A stretch of 35,932 bases of DNA from Thermodesulfovibrionales bacterium. GTDB taxonomy: Bacteria > Nitrospirota > Thermodesulfovibrionia > Thermodesulfovibrionales > SM23-35. The stretch is from the NCBI GenBank assembly GCA_030019415.1, contig JASEEX010000020.1:1-35932 (forward strand). Direction: 5' to 3'. Position numbers and translations under genes: made by a program. How positions within the stretch are numbered: position 1 is the first letter of the stretch; each line of letters begins with the position of its first letter. This document shows positions 1,494 to 9,158 of this stretch, in pieces. The notes below the pieces were generated by a model that saw only the letters and a list, made by a program, of their open reading frames with translations, was not told where the DNA came from and did no database searches.

Positions 1494-1523
1494 TTGACAG
1501 CCTTCTTAGATTTATGTTTTAAT
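1494..1523 (+). promoter_or_regulatory. Probable pyr operon promoter
   Basis: TTGACA (1494-1499) is followed after 18 bases by TTTAAT (1518-1523). The predicted start of transcription is near 1530, which coincides with the first base pairs of the PyrR-binding stem. The promoter lies inside the mazG remnant. It is predicted from sequence only. Confidence 0.6.
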
Positions 1524-1528
1524 AAAAT

Positions 1529-1583
1529 TGCCTTTAAGGATGGCCCGGTGAGGCCAGAAGGCAGAGGAGGCAGCCCAAGCTGC
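1529..1583 (+). promoter_or_regulatory. PyrR-binding RNA loop (pyr attenuator leader)
   Basis: The RNA would fold as a stem TGCCTT (1529-1534) with AAGGCA (1558-1563), an internal purine bulge AAGGA, an upper stem TGGCC (1541-1545) with GGCCA (1552-1556), and the loop CGGTGA. The CC-GUGAGGCC core and the flanking bulge are those of known PyrR binding loops. A second small hairpin follows (GCAGC 1570-1574 with GCTGC 1579-1583). The 3' side GAAGG (1557-1561) can alternatively pair with CCTTC (1606-1610) of the terminator, giving an antiterminator. When UMP-loaded PyrR holds the binding loop, that pairing is blocked and the terminator forms. Structure seen, mechanism inferred from the family. 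Confidence 0.85.
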
Positions 1584-1603
1584 GAAAATTTAAAAACTTA
1601 ATG

Positions 1604-1637
1604 AACCTTCCACTCAACGAGGGGAAGGTTTTTTTTT
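1604..1637 (+). terminator. Intrinsic terminator (attenuator) before pyrR
   Basis: AACCTTCC (1604-1611) pairs with GGAAGGTT (1623-1630) around an 11-base loop, and a run of nine T (1629-1637) follows. It lies 12 bases before the pyrR start codon and downstream of the PyrR-binding loop, exactly where an attenuator of the whole operon belongs. Confidence 0.9.
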
Positions 1638-1648
1638 GGTTTTGAAGA

Positions 1649-2241: not shown

Positions 2242-3162
2242 ATGCTGAATAAAAAGGACTTACTCGGCATAAAGGAACTCTCTGTGGAAGAAATTGACCT
2301 TATTCTCGATACAGCGGCGGGATTCAAAGACGTGCTTAGAAGGGACATTAAAAAGGTTCCCACCCTCCGCGGCAAGACTGCTGTTAACCTCTTCTTTGAA
2401 CCCTCAACAAGGACAAGGACATCTTTTGAACTCGCAGCAAAGAGGCTTAGCACAGATGTCATAAACTTCTCTGTACCTACAAGCAGCGTTGTAAAAGGTG
2501 AGAGTCTGATTGACACAGCCCTTACAGTCCAGGCCCTCGGTGCAGATTTCATAATAATAAGACATTCCTCATCTGGGGTACCACATCTACTCGCTAAAAA
2601 ACTCAGGGCCTCTGTGATAAATGCAGGGGATGGCACAAATGAGCATCCAACCCAGGCACTCCTCGATGCCTTCACTATAAGGGAGAAGAAGAGAAAGATC
2701 GAAGGTCTCGATATAGCTATTGTGGGAGACATAATCCATAGCAGGGTTGCAAAATCAAATATCTATAGCCTTACGAAACTCAGGGCAAGGGTAAGGCTGA
2801 TCGGCCCTCCAACCTTGATACCAAAAGAGATGGAGGGCATCGGTGTTGGAGTCTTTCATAATATGGAAGATGGTCTGAAGAATGTGGACGTTGTGATGAT
2901 GCTCAGAATACAGATGGAAAGGCAGGGCAGGGGTTTCTTTCCGTCCACGGAGGAGTATTTCAAAAACTGGGGGCTGACACCTGAAAGACTCTCGCTTGCA
3001 AAGGATGACGTTATAGTTATGCATCCTGGCCCAATGAACCGGGGGGTCGAAATTGCATCAGAGATTGCAGATGGTCCGAAATCGGTAATCCTCGAACAGG
3101 TGACAAATGGCCTTGCTGTTAGGATGGCGGTTATGTATCTCCTCGCAGGGGTAAAAAGATGA
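2242..3162 (+). CDS. pyrB: Aspartate carbamoyltransferase catalytic chain
   Basis: It joins carbamoyl phosphate and aspartate to carbamoyl-L-aspartate, the first committed pyrimidine step, in the cytoplasm. The 306-residue length is standard. The carbamoyl-phosphate loop STRTRTSFE is at about 55-63, [18 protein letters not shown] at about 130-147 and [10 protein letters not shown] near residue 258-267. Those are the active-site segments of the family. GGAG lies 8-9 bases before the ATG. The 3' end overlaps pyrC by four bases (ATGA), which points to translational coupling. No pyrI regulatory-chain gene is seen, so allosteric control by a PyrI partner is not supported here; regulation is more likely through PyrR. 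Confidence 0.97.
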
Positions 3163-4475
3163 GGATATTAATCGAAAAAGGACATATTATAGACCCTTCA
3201 CAGGGTATAGATGGAATTGGTGATGTATTAATTGAAGATGGAAAGATTAAAGAAGTCAGAGCAAAGAGCAAAGAGCAGGGAGCAGAGAGCAAAAAACAGA
3301 AGCCCCATAAGTCAAACTCTGAACTCCGAACTATCGACGCAAAAAGAATGTTCGTAATTCCTGGGCTTATCGATATGCATGTGCATCTAAGGGAGCCTGG
3401 TTTTGAATACAAGGAGACGATAAAAACAGGAACTGCTGCTGCTATCAGGGGTGGCTTTACAACCGTCTGCTGTATGCCAAACACATACCCTATTAATGAC
3501 AATGCAAGCGTAACAGAATTCATAATAAGAAAGGCTGCACAGGAAGGCTTATGCACCGTCCTACCAATTGGTGCAATAACCAAAGGCCAGAAAGGAGAAG
3601 AACTTGCAGAGATTGGCACAATGAGGAACGAAGGTTGCGTCGCATTTTCTGACGATGGACAGCCTGTGATGAACAGTCTGATTATGAGAAGGGTGCTTGA
3701 GTATTCAAAGGCATTTGATGTGCCGATAATCTCTCACTGTGAGGACTTAACACTTTCTGAAGGCGGAGTGATGAATGAAGGGCTACTGTCTGTAACACTC
3801 GGCCTTAGAGGGATTCCTGCTGAGGCAGAGGAGATAATGGTCTTCAGGGATATTATGTTAGCAGGACTTACGGGTGGAAGGCTACACATTGGACATGTGT
3901 CAACAGAAGGCTCAGTGAAATTGATAAGGGATGCAAAGAGAAGGGGTGTAAATGTTACAGCTGAGACATGCCCTCATTATTTCAGCCTCACAGAGGATGC
4001 TTTAAGGGATTATGATACGAATGCTAAGGTTAATCCTCCTTTACGGACAAAGAGGGACATCGAGGCCATAAAGGAGGGGCTAAAAGATGGCACGATTGAT
4101 GTGATTGCAACTGACCATGCACCACATCACAGGGATGAAAAACTCAGGGAATTCGACCTCGCACCTTTAGGCATCTCGGGTCTCGAAACTGCACTCCCTT
4201 TGAGCTTGAGACTTGTTGATGAAGGGGTTTTAACTATGAACCAGTTGGTAGAAAAGATGTCCTTCAATCCTGCACGGATTCTCGGTATTTCTTCAAAAGG
4301 CAGTCTTAAACAAGGGTCTGATGCAGGTGTTACGATCTTAGATACAAAAAAAGAGGTCAGGGTTGAGGCTGAGAAATTTGTTTCAAAGGGGAAGAATACG
4401 CCTTTTGATGGATGGGTTCTTAAAGGTATGGTTGTTATCACAATCTCAAAAGGAAGGATATGCGAATGGCAATAA
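3159..4475 (+). CDS. pyrC: Dihydroorotase (type I, zinc)
   Basis: It closes carbamoyl aspartate to dihydroorotate, the third pyrimidine step. The 438-residue protein has the amidohydrolase metal motif [10 protein letters not shown] (72-81), a [12 protein letters not shown] segment, the HCED loop and the catalytic ATDHAPHH motif near residue 320. Residues about 32-58 are a lysine, glutamate and glutamine-rich stretch encoded by a simple repeat. They fall between two beta strands of the small N-terminal domain, where a surface loop is tolerable. It overlaps pyrB by four bases and carA by 10-16 bases. It stops directly at the edge of the palindromic element that starts carA. Confidence 0.96.
3255..3333. 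repeat. In-frame simple repeat in pyrC (AAAGAGCA-type)
   Basis: Short units AGAGCAAAGAGC / AGGGAGCAGAGAGC are followed by partly complementary units (AACTCTGAACTCCGAACT). They add about 26 residues to PyrC without breaking the frame. It is the same style as the repeats in carA, carB and the ribosomal gaps. Confidence 0.7.
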
Positions 4476-5782
4476 ACCCCATTAGAAAGCTCGCCCCGTT
4501 TAGAGATAAATCTTTAACGAGGCTTGGGCCTGCTTCGTTAGAAAATTTTTCTAACAGGGTAAAGGCATTGCTCGTCCTGTCAGATGGGACTGTATTTGAG
4601 GGTAGAAACTTCGGTGCTGAGGGAGAGGCGATAGGTGAGGTAGTATTTAACACCTCTATGACAGGCTATCAGGAAATCCTCACAGACCCTTCGTACAAAG
4701 GACAGATTGTCACGATGACATACACCCAGATAGGAAATTATGGGGTGAATTCCGAAGATATAGAATCTCTCGGGGGCCCGAAGGTAGAAGGTTTTATAGT
4801 TAAAGAATACCTCCCTTTCCCGAGTAACTGGCGAGCCGAGAAGTTTAAAGTTAAAAGTTTAAAGTTAAAAGTTATAAATTCATTAAAAGACTATTTGAAA
4901 GAATATGGAATTGTTGGTATTCAGGGAATAGATACAAGGGCCCTCACAAAGCATATAAGAGACTATGGCTCGCAGATGGGGATAATTTCAACGAGGGACC
5001 TAAACCCTGAGAATCTTCTCGAAAAGGTAAGGAGAAATCCTGGGATTGTGGGCATTGACCTCGTAAAGGAGGTAACCTCAAAAAAGGCATACTTGTGGAA
5101 AGAAGGTTTATGGAAGTGGATTCCTGCTGACGCAGAAGTTCAAAGTTCAAAGTTCAAAGTTCAAAGTTATGAAGAAAAAAACTCAGCACTCATCCGCCTC
5201 AGGCGGACTCAGCACTCAGTACTTAAAAAAGTTGTGGTCTATGATTTTGGAGTTAAGCTCAGCATCCTGAGAAACCTTGTAGATGCAGGCTTTGATGTCT
5301 ATGTTGTGCCTGCAAAAACTCCTGCCAAGGAGGTTCTTGATATGAACCCTGACGGGATAGTCTTGAGCAATGGCCCAGGAGATCCTGAGCCAGTTAAATA
5401 CGCCATCGAAAATACAAAGAAGCTTATTGGCAAAAGGCCCTTATTCGGCATCTGCCTTGGCCATCAGATACTCAGTTTAGCACTTGGGGGAAGGACATAC
5501 AAACTCAAATTCGGGCATCATGGAGGAAACCATCCTGTAATGGATCTGGAGACTGAGAAGGTTGAGATAACCTCCCAGAACCATAACTTCTGTGTTGATA
5601 TTAAGAGCCTGAGGGGACAGGTCGAACTCACTCACAGGAATCTTTATGACGGAACAGAGGAAGGAATGAGGCATGTTGAACTTCCCATATTTTCTGTTCA
5701 GTATCATCCAGAGGCAGGCCCAGGGCCAAACGATGCATGCTACATATTCAAGAGGTTTAGGGAGTTAATCGAGAGAGGTTAA
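4460..5782 (+). CDS. carA: Carbamoyl-phosphate synthase small chain (glutamine amidotransferase)
   Basis: CarA releases ammonia from glutamine and feeds it to CarB. The class I amidotransferase triad is intact: Cys332 in FGICLGHQ, His416 and Glu418 in QYHPEAG. The N-terminal domain begins at [15 protein letters not shown] (34-48), so residues 1-33 are extra and are encoded by a palindromic element (4476-4560). Two more repeat-encoded inserts lie at about residues 128-141 and 226-255. With them the protein is 440 residues, against about 360-380 normally. The start is the ATG at 4460 or, better spaced from AGGAAGG, the ATG at 4466. A single base separates it from carB. Confidence 0.95.
4476..4560. 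repeat. CCCCATTAGAAAG-ended palindromic element forming the CarA N-terminus
   Basis: The left end ACCCCATTAGAAAG (4476-4489) is mirrored by TTTTCTAACAGGGT (4547-4560), 11 of 14 pairs. A near-perfect hairpin GTTAGAAAA/TTTTTCTAAC lies at 4537-4555. The ends match the element at 20522-20624. It starts directly after the pyrC stop codon, and all of it is translated as the first part of CarA. Confidence 0.7.
4841..4877. repeat. In-frame AAAGTTA-type repeat in carA, insert 1
   Basis: Tandem AAGTTTAAAGTTAAAAGTTT units encode [10 protein letters not shown]. The units are 7-14 bases long, and the reading frame stays open. The same motif occurs in carB and in gaps of the ribosomal cluster. Confidence 0.8.
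5135..5216. repeat. In-frame composite repeat in carA, insert 2
   Basis: Four or more AAGTTCA units (5135-5170) are followed by a perfect hairpin CCGCCTCAGGCGG (5194-5206), flanked by direct copies of ACTCAGCACT. The insert lies between the N-terminal and the amidotransferase domain of CarA, a natural linker, and adds about 30 residues. Confidence 0.8.
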
Positions 5783-5783
5783 G

Positions 5784-8700
5784 TTGCCAAAGAGAACTGA
5801 CATCAAGAAGATTCTCCTTATTGGTTCTGGTCCTATAATCATAGGCCAGGCATGCGAATTTGACTATTCAGGGACTCAGGCATGCAAGGCCCTCCGTGAA
5901 GAGGGCTACAAGACTGTACTCGTCAACTCAAACCCTGCGACAATAATGACTGACCCTGAGATGGCTGATGCAACATACATAGAGCCTCTGACTGCTGATA
6001 TCCTTGAATTGATAATTACAAAGGAAAGGCCTGATGCCCTTCTTCCGACCATGGGTGGCCAGATTGCCCTGAATCTATCTGTAGAGCTGGCCGAGGAAGG
6101 TGTGCTCGATAAATATGGTGTTGAACTTATTGGTGCAAAGCTTGATGCAATAAAAAAGGCGGAGAACAGGGAACTTTTTAAGGAGGCTATGGTAAAGATT
6201 GGCCTCGAAGTCCCAAGGTCTGCCTATGTTGATTCACTAAAAGAGGGACTTGAAGCAATAGAGGATATTGGATTCCCTGCAATCCTGAGGCCTTCCTTTA
6301 CCCTTGGAGGCACTGGGGGTGGTATAGCTTACAACATAGAGGAATACAGAGAGTTGCTTGAACGAGGCCTAAAGTTCAGCCCCATCCATCAGGTGCTCGT
6401 CGAGGAATCAGTCCTCGGATGGAAGGAATATGAACTCGAAGTCATGCGTGACAGGAAAGACAATGTTGTTATCATCTGCTCCATAGAGAACTTTGATCCC
6501 ATGGGAATACATACTGGAGATTCGATCACTGTTGCACCGGCCCAGACCCTTACTGATAAAGAATATCAGAGGATGCGCGATGCAGCCATCGCAATCATAC
6601 GTGAGATAGGTGTTGACACAGGTGGTTCAAACATCCAGTTTGCCCTCAATCCGAAGAACGGAAGAATGGTAGTGATAGAGATGAACCCGAGGGTATCGAG
6701 GAGTTCAGCCCTCGCATCGAAGGCAACGGGATTCCCGATAGCAAAGATCGCAGCAAAGCTTGCCGTTGGTCTCACCCTCGACGAGATACCCAATGATATA
6801 ACGAGGGAAACTCCTGCGTCCTTCGAACCGACAATTGACTATGTTGTGACGAAGTTCCCACGCTTTGCCTTTGAGAAATTCCCTGAGGCAGACCCCACAC
6901 TCACCACACAGATGAAGTCTGTCGGAGAGGTGATGGCCATAGGGAGGACCTTTAAAGAGTCCCTCCAGAAGGCTATAAGAAGCCTTGAGATTGATAGCTA
7001 TGGCCTAGAGGATCTGAAGGCCGATATAAGCATTATAAGGGCAAAGCTCAAGACTCCGAATTCTGAAAGGGTATGGTACATAGCACAGGCTTTGAGAGAG
7101 GGCATGAGTATTCAAGAGATATATGAGCTTACGTGGATAGACCCGTGGTTTCTTAACAATATAAAGCAGATAATAGATATGGAAGAAAGGATAAGGAATT
7201 ATGGGAGGGGGATTAAAAAAGAGGCAAGCCTGAGCCTTGCACCATATTTAATACCAAAGGATCTTTTAATTGATGCGAAGGGATATGGCTTTTCGGATAG
7301 AAGGATTGCAGAACTCCTTAATGTAGAAGAATCTGATTTAAGGCATCTGAGGCGCCAACACGGAATGCATGCTGTTTACAAGATGGTTGATACATGTGGA
7401 GCAGAGTTTGCTGCATACACACCATATCTGTATTCGACGTATGAGAAACCATTCTATAAAGTTGAAAGTGAAAAGTTAAAATTTAAGAGTGAAAATCAAG
7501 ATACAATCAGTTCACTCTCAACTCTTAACTCTCAACTTTTAACTTCGAGAATTGAGTGTGAGGCAAATCCAGGCAGTAAAAAGAAGATTCTCATCCTCGG
7601 TTCAGGTCCTAACAGGATAGGGCAGGGTATCGAATTTGACTACTGTTGTGTGCACGCAGTGTTCGGCATCAAGGAGCTCGGCTATGAAACCATAATGGTG
7701 AACTGTAACCCTGAAACAGTCAGCACAGACTATGACATTGCGGACAGGCTTTACTTTGAGCCTCTCACAATAGAGGATGTGCTCAGTATAACCAAGACCG
7801 AAAGGCCTGAAGGTGTTATAGTCCAGTTTGGGGGCCAGACGCCCCTGAAGCTCGCAGTTCCCCTCGACAGAGAGGGTATAAAAATCCTTGGCACATCTCC
7901 CGACTCCATAGACCGTGCAGAAGACAGGAAGAGATTTAAAGAACTACTCCATAAGCTCGGTTTTAAACAGGCTGAGAGCGATACCGCCATGTCTGTTGAA
8001 GAGGCTATATATGCGGCAGAGACAATAGGGTATCCTGTGATGATAAGACCATCTTATGTTCTTGGCGGCAGGGCTATGGAGATAGTCTATGATGAAAAAT
8101 CTCTAAAGGACTATATGAAAAAAGCTGTGAAGGTATCTCCTGAACACCCCGTGCTTGTAGACAAGTACCTGGAGGATGCTATCGAGGTAGATGTCGATGC
8201 TATATCTGATGGGAGGGATATAATCATTGGGGGAGTGATGGAACATATCGAGGAGGCGGGTATCCATTCTGGTGATTCAGCATGTTGCCTTCCTCCGCAT
8301 TCGCTAAATAAAGAGATTATAGATGAGATAAAGAGGCAGACAAAGGCTCTCGCAAAAGAGCTCAATGTAATAGGGTTGATGAATGTGCAGTTTGCTGTAA
8401 AAAACTATGATATCTACATACTCGAGGTAAATCCAAGGGCATCGAGGACGATACCCTTCGTGAGCAAGGCAACGGGCATTCCCTTAGCGAAGATTGCAGC
8501 AAAGGTAATGGTTGGCAAGACGTTAAAAGATCTCGGGATCACAGAAGAGAGGCATATAGAACATATTGCAGTTAAGGAGGCCGTCTTCCCCTTTGACAGA
8601 TTTTCCGGAGTCGACACCATACTCGGTCCTGAGATGAAATCAACGGGAGAGGTGATGGGCATAGATGAGGACTTCGGTCGCGCCTTTGGGAAGTCCCAGA

Positions 8701-9158
8701 CTTCCTGTGGCAACAGGATTCCTTTATCAGGGAAGATATTTATCAGCCTTAAGGACAAAGACAAGCCCACCTCTGTTTTAATAGTTAAAAAGCTTCTTGA
8801 ACTCGGCCTCTCTGTAATTGCAACGAGGGGAACTGCCCGGTATCTTAAGGAACACGGTCTTGAGGTTGAGGTCGTCAATAAGGTTACCGAAGGGAGGCCA
8901 CATATCGTAGACTTGATCAAGAACAAGGAGATTAATTTTGTCATTAATACAGTAAGCGGTACTCAGGCACAGAAAGACTCCTTCTCAATACGGCAGAGTG
9001 CCCTTCAATACAAGGTACCTTTTACTACAACGGTATCAGGTGCATTTGCAGCAGTGAAGGCAATAGAGATACTTAAGGAGAAGGAGGTTAATATAAAGTC
9101 AATACAGGAATATCACGCGGACTTATTAGCCCCCAGGATATCCCTTACCCGTTTCTGA
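5784..9158 (+). CDS. carB: Carbamoyl-phosphate synthase large chain
   Basis: CarB makes carbamoyl phosphate from bicarbonate, two ATP and ammonia delivered by CarA. The two homologous ATP-grasp halves are visible: the first starts [15 protein letters not shown] (about residue 8), the second [15 protein letters not shown] (about 600). A C-terminal MGS-like allosteric domain begins near residue 985. Length is 1124 against about 1070 normally. The excess is mainly an in-frame repeat at residues 559-588, in the linker just before the second half. The start is TTG at 5784, one base after the carA stop, with GAGAGAGG upstream; no ATG fits the conserved N-terminus. It is the last gene of the pyr operon. 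Confidence 0.97.
7459..7547. repeat. In-frame inverted AAAGTTA-type repeat in carB
   Basis: The left arm has units like AAAGTTGAAAGTGAAAAGTTAA, and the right arm carries the complement (ACTCTCAACTTTTAACTTC). A hairpin of about 35 bases per arm, imperfect, could form. It adds about 30 residues to the linker between the two synthetase halves. Confidence 0.8.

Follow-up and report, generated by a model that had tools for sequence, protein, structure and literature searches.

The pyr operon and its leader

The window, the whole stretch of 35,932 nucleotides that was analysed, comes from a Thermodesulfovibrionales bacterium and carries a pyr operon on its forward strand. The first gene, pyrR (1649–2218), codes for the bifunctional regulator/uracil phosphoribosyltransferase (NF003549, 240 bits against a cut-off of 138). 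The rest of the operon follows directly downstream on the same strand (2242–9158) and consists, by NCBIfam assignment, of pyrB (2242–3162), pyrC (3159–4475), carA (4460–5782) and carB (5784–9158), in the order pyrR-pyrB-pyrC-carA-carB after the leader. No clear ribosome site precedes the start of pyrR itself. A palindrome (GGGGGATT) at 2165–2232 covers the 3′ end of pyrR and encodes its last residues; no second copy was found in the genome at an E value of 0.001.

A promoter lies on the forward strand at 1494–1523. It is made up of TTGACA (1494–1499), an 18-base spacer and an extended −10 element, TG-T-TTTAAT (1515–1523), and matches 11 of the 12 consensus bases. A simple sigma-70 scan skipped it because of the scan's rule for the −10 box, TTTAAT having no A at position 2. 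From this promoter, transcription is predicted to start near 1530, where the PyrR loop stem begins.

The predicted PyrR binding loop (1530–1562, forward strand) was recognized from an Rfam match, the minimum-free-energy fold and class-wide pairing. It has a lower stem (1530–1535/1557–1562), a purine bulge, AAGGA (1536–1540), an upper stem (1541–1545/1552–1556) and the hexaloop CGGUGA (1546–1551), which follows the pattern C-N-G-N-G-A. The loop was present in the minimum-free-energy structure of the window (z −1.78; 9 of 200 shuffles folded equally well). Two bases 3′ of it on the same strand is a Shine-Dalgarno-like AGGAGG (1565–1570), followed by a small hairpin, GCAGC-CCAA-GCUGC (1570–1583, forward strand), seen in the window fold and in the comparison with relatives. 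An intrinsic terminator occupies 1603–1637 of the forward strand, 3′ of the loop, with its stem at 1603–1631 and a T run at 1629–1637.

The coordinates were checked, and this part of the preliminary description was borne out. The promoter, the PyrR-type loop with its purine bulge and the terminator are all present at 1494–1648 in front of pyrR. The loop core was seen in the fold, in the RF00515 alignment and in the class pairing, and transcription is predicted to begin on the first base of the stem, which would make the leader minimal.

Upstream of the operon, a mazG gene (1287–1601) retains about 70 of 250 residues and breaks off exactly at the pyr promoter, and its truncated frame continues in frame through the promoter and leader to 1601. 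This fragment is the sole MazG of the genome, and a full MazG domain was found elsewhere in 20 of 20 relatives. The join may be either a rearrangement or a misassembly. The tblastn matches of mazG residues 66–104 in relatives were set aside, since what aligned was the conserved promoter and leader, translated in the frame of mazG, and no mazG gene.

Occurrence of the leader in Nitrospirota

The Rfam PyrR model (RF00515) matched positions 1527–1637 with 44.7 bits (E 1.2e-4) over all 115 model positions, and this was its only match in the genome. The gathering cut-off is 54 bits, and at this threshold Rfam gave no match in the window. It had been proposed that a cmsearch score below threshold for the loop would refute the description, and under that rule the element would fail. 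The rule is too strict. Two clear homologues, L305 and L306, have a complete leader although the RF00515 search missed them, and score only 38.7 and 37.7. Other weak Rfam matches, including mir-4433 and GibS, scored far below their own cut-offs and were attributed to chance or to palindromes.

The RF00515 search matched 41 of 61 genomes (the window's own and its relatives), 116 of 230 genomes of the class, with 27 of the 230 reaching the cut-off, and 273 of 395 genomes drawn from the phylum. The class belongs to Nitrospirota: a stretch of 1746 bases in its member G214 is identical to part of a 'Nitrospirae bacterium JdFR-81' contig. A second, partial match in G113 was not used, and L131 was dropped as a duplicate of L139 (both from G326). 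L039, which has a long insert, was left out of alignment A1 and included in all later leader counts.

Pairing of the loop was maintained across the 116 class leaders. Pairs 2–5 of the lower stem were paired in 100% of them, those of the upper stem in 94–100% and the outermost pair in 77%, with the pairs varying between C-G, T-A and G-T types. An exact TTGACA was present in 84 of the 114 class leaders whose upstream sequence was long enough; in stretches 60 bases farther 5′ it occurred in 4 of 110. Of the 114 leaders, 58 had the same 6-base gap between the −10 box and the loop as the window. Every one of the 116 class leaders used had a T run 3′ of the loop, a biased count, as this set was found with a model that includes the terminator. 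Because of the matches in class and phylum, the paired stems and the conserved promoter, the element was confirmed as real and as ordinary within its own lineage.

The preliminary description had considered the element worth recording in this lineage, PyrR attenuation being described mainly from Gram-positive bacteria and actinobacteria. This was half right: the loop is common across Nitrospirota, as the class and phylum counts show. Among the matches listed, loop sequences also came from beyond the phylum, from Dehalococcoidia, other Chloroflexi and some actinobacterial MAGs; this survey lists 80 loci of 120 stretches and gives occurrences from which no frequencies can be derived. Behind the PyrR loop in L218, L210, L241 and L258 (Dehalococcoidia and actinobacterial MAGs), a short ORF runs across the terminator, and the layout of loop, ORF and terminator may extend beyond Nitrospirota.

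The 20 RF00515 misses among the 61 genomes were also followed up. Genomes G001, G017 and G038 had no PyrR gene over the cut-off, and in G039 the PyrR gene was cut by the contig end. The upstream regions of the other 16 pyrR genes were examined by eye and with a script. Besides the complete leaders L305 and L306, six had a loop without a terminator (L307, L311, L312, L314, L317 and L320), and no loop was seen upstream of pyrR in eight (L308, L309, L310, L313, L315, L316, L318 and L319).

Most class leaders (e.g. L008 and L015) have an ATG directly after the T run (TTTTTTTATG). It serves as the start of pyrR in some families that do not belong to the order of the window, and there AAGG in the 3′ arm of the terminator might act as ribosome site. 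Within that order itself, pyrR mostly begins farther downstream, with the ATG after the T run still kept.

Pairing of the terminator arm and the leader reading frame

The preliminary description had also proposed that GAAGG (1557–1561) pairs with CCTTC (1606–1610) in a mutually exclusive antiterminator. This would make the leader a classical attenuator of the Bacillus subtilis type, in which GAAGG, or the GGAGG behind it, pairs with the 5′ arm of the terminator, PyrR prevents this pairing, and no ribosome is involved. The loop, the terminator and the complementarity between the two segments are all present, the last amounting to 5 pairs only. In the window the loop itself was estimated at −16.3 kcal/mol, and the best duplex between the loop region and the terminator arm at −8.0, no better than shuffles (z +0.2). 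When the transcript was folded up to the terminator loop, without the 3′ arm, the binding loop stayed in the minimum-energy structure, and the bases of the arm paired with the loop region with a mean probability of 0.23. This part of the description was not supported: by thermodynamic estimate, and beside Bacillota controls, there was no strong antiterminator to compete with the loop in the window.

The controls were 60 Bacillota leaders in which a terminator was found and the length was at least 85. The arm-loop pairing probability was above 0.5 in 44 of these 60, against 22 of the 116 leaders of the window's class; two sites of Bacillus velezensis gave 0.50 and 0.90, and Listeria 0.83. The duplex test alone separated the two groups less well, with a median z of −0.25 in the class and −1.01 in Bacillota, and an antiterminator stronger than the loop in 36 of 116 and 50 of 60 leaders, respectively.

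When pairing with the spacer was counted too, pairing of the arm exceeded 0.5 in 61 of the 116 class leaders. For this reason some competing pairing with the terminator arm was considered common in the class, and a partial antiterminator is possible. Attenuation of the B. subtilis type gains from this count. On the other hand, the weak pairing in the window speaks against it, and it leaves the conserved reading frame described below unexplained. We regarded it as unlikely.

A leader ORF was absent from the earlier reading of the window. In 104 of the 116 class leaders, a Shine-Dalgarno site directly behind the loop is followed by a start codon before the terminator. The starts were picked by ribosome-site score and position alone, never by the length of the ORF. 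No stop interrupted the frame before the terminator arm in 102 of the 104, against 74 and 56 in the two control frames, and the frame ran past the terminator hairpin in 86 (46 and 41). In 59 (6 and 8) its stop codon lay between −5 and +8 relative to the pyrR start. In the non-redundant set, built by shared 6-mers and not by tree, 78 of 88 leaders had a start; 76 of the frames were open to the arm (controls 54 and 47), 62 passed the hairpin (33 and 34) and 42 stopped near pyrR (2 and 8). The Fisher p values for the stop position, 5e-22 and 9e-16, are too small, as they treat the leaders as independent.

The stop overlapped pyrR even at long distance, as in L062, where pyrR is 227 bases away. 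The opening codons of pyrR (ATGNNTAA) in part dictate a stop at +8, and the evidence therefore lies in the frame staying open that far. Bacillota leaders showed no frame preference (21 of 38 frames, against 17 and 21 in the control frames). These results showed that the reading frame is selected in the class.

Outside the class, 52 of 54 Nitrospirota leaders, mostly the best-scoring ones, had a start, usually an ATG 14–18 bases behind the loop core. Fifty of the 52 frames reached the terminator arm (controls 32 and 34) and 31 passed the hairpin (22 and 22), and only 8 stopped near pyrR (1 and 3). The scarcity outside the class of stops near pyrR and of frames past the hairpin speaks against the translation-coupled attenuation proposed below, and so do the 8 of 16 RF00515-negative upstream regions without a visible loop. 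In several leaders of the window's own family, moreover, the ORF stopped at or inside the terminator, short of pyrR.

The small hairpin behind the ribosome site was found as CAGC-N4-GCTG in 31 of the 116 class leaders. Its loop is GTGA in 23, where the hairpin CAGC-GUGA-GCUG carries a GTG start, and CCAA only in the window. A genome-wide scan for GCAGC-N4-GCTGC found only the leader itself and one site with one mismatch, which ruled out a dispersed repeat.

The window copy thus retains the hairpin, with CCA in place of the usual GTG, and lacks any ATG, GTG or TTG preceded by a ribosome site between loop and terminator. The original leader frame is still open to the TAA at 1599–1601 (xSCENLKT; compare MSCKNLES in L026). 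Nine bases after AGGAGG, a CTG (1580–1582) opens a 21-codon frame that crosses the terminator and ends with a TGA at 1643–1645, three bases upstream of pyrR. This candidate leader ORF (1580–1645, forward strand) meets the original frame in TAATG (1599–1603, forward strand), where the stop of the original frame overlaps an ATG of the CTG frame.

A single 21-codon frame in the window is not significant alone. Among the 12 class leaders without a usual start, however, L020, L029, L080 and L115 each open a frame with CTG that passes through the terminator; the stops lie at +8, +4, +8 and +8. Because these leaders share the layout, CTG 1580 is plausible as the likeliest substitute start, judged from the sequence comparison. 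It lies in the 3′ strand of the small hairpin, and translation of the window leader may be weak.

We also considered that the window copy had decayed: a rearrangement beside mazG would have removed the leader start, leaving the switch locked low or fed by upstream transcripts that translate the mazG fragment through to TAATG. The CCA in place of GTG agrees with this, as do the mazG frame running in frame through the leader and the truncation of a gene that is intact in all 20 relatives. But the leader still has an undamaged promoter, loop, ribosome site and terminator, the downstream operon is intact, and the mazG join could be an assembly error. We thought decay quite unlikely.

Three of the leaders missed by the RF00515 search, L311, L314 and L320, have the loop and the ribosome site and no stable T-tailed hairpin. 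Their ORFs, of 53, 48 and 43 codons, end at +8 of the pyrR ATG, and neither control frame does so. By their sequences, these leaders fit coupling of the ORF to pyrR as a separate function. L307 has loop and ORF without a terminator, with the stop at +11. L317, in which the ORF stops early, and L312, in which the frame fuses into pyrR, fit more poorly.

Such leaders would be expected if control were mainly translational, with PyrR on the loop blocking the leader ORF and, by coupling, pyrR, and with the terminator adding polarity only. The want of a clear ribosome site at pyrR in the window would agree with this. The T run in every class leader, on the other hand, makes the transcriptional arm look selected, with the reservation that the search model was biased towards it. 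Control of this kind was considered improbable.

Proposed regulation and comparison with known PyrR systems

Translation-coupled attenuation by a PyrR leader is probably the best explanation of these observations. Transcription would begin at the PyrR binding loop. At low UMP, the loop would be free of PyrR, and a ribosome could load at the site just behind it and translate the short leader ORF as far as the terminator or through it, thereby preventing the terminator from folding. It would stop at the pyrR start and hand over to pyrR by re-initiation. At high UMP, PyrR would clamp the loop, within ribosome reach of the Shine-Dalgarno site, and occlude the ribosome; the leader would stay untranslated, the terminator would form, and the operon would be off. 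Binding of PyrR to the loop and its dependence on UMP are presumed here by analogy with the B. subtilis family.

The scheme may apply throughout Nitrospirota. PyrR would then gate the translation of a leader ORF, and the ribosome would serve as the antiterminator before re-initiating at pyrR. The peptide sequence would be irrelevant, the frame alone being kept, and some lineages would have lost the terminator and kept the relay from ORF to pyrR. We consider that this wider proposal could equally well hold or fail.

The literature searched, with most subscription journals outside its scope, held no description of PyrR leaders of Nitrospirota and no mention of a ribosome-coupled PyrR scheme in Thermus. 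The loop shape, the hexaloop and the purine bulge of the window agree with the description of PyrR loops, whose consensus is given as ARUCCAGAGAGGYU (PMC7430163). The B. subtilis pyr attenuators and RF00515 share these features with the window, and also a terminator after the loop. The window differs from B. subtilis in having no strong antiterminator, a leader ORF instead, and a score below the gathering cut-off. Its genome has one site, whereas B. subtilis has three in the operon.

Mycobacterial PyrR acts by translational repression at a PyrR loop adjoining a ribosome site, and the window likewise has its loop beside such a site. The mycobacterial site, however, belongs to the first gene and is without a terminator, whereas that of the window belongs to the leader ORF and is followed by a terminator.

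Another close parallel is the pyr operon of Thermus ZO5, reportedly described by Van de Casteele and co-workers in J Bacteriol in 1997. It is said to have a PyrR leader before pyrR-pyrB and no antiterminator, and a translating ribosome was reportedly proposed to prevent the terminator. It would resemble the scheme proposed for the Nitrospirota leaders in using a ribosome rather than an antiterminator. The Nitrospirota case differs from this reported one in resting on a frame conserved in many genomes, in the frequent overlap of the stop with the pyrR start and in the lineages without a terminator.

If the proposal is true, a mechanism reportedly put forward for one Thermus strain becomes phylum-wide and testable, and the low Rfam scores of Nitrospirota leaders are in part explained. 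One RNA-binding protein would then act through RNA refolding in Bacillota and through the movement of ribosomes in Nitrospirota.
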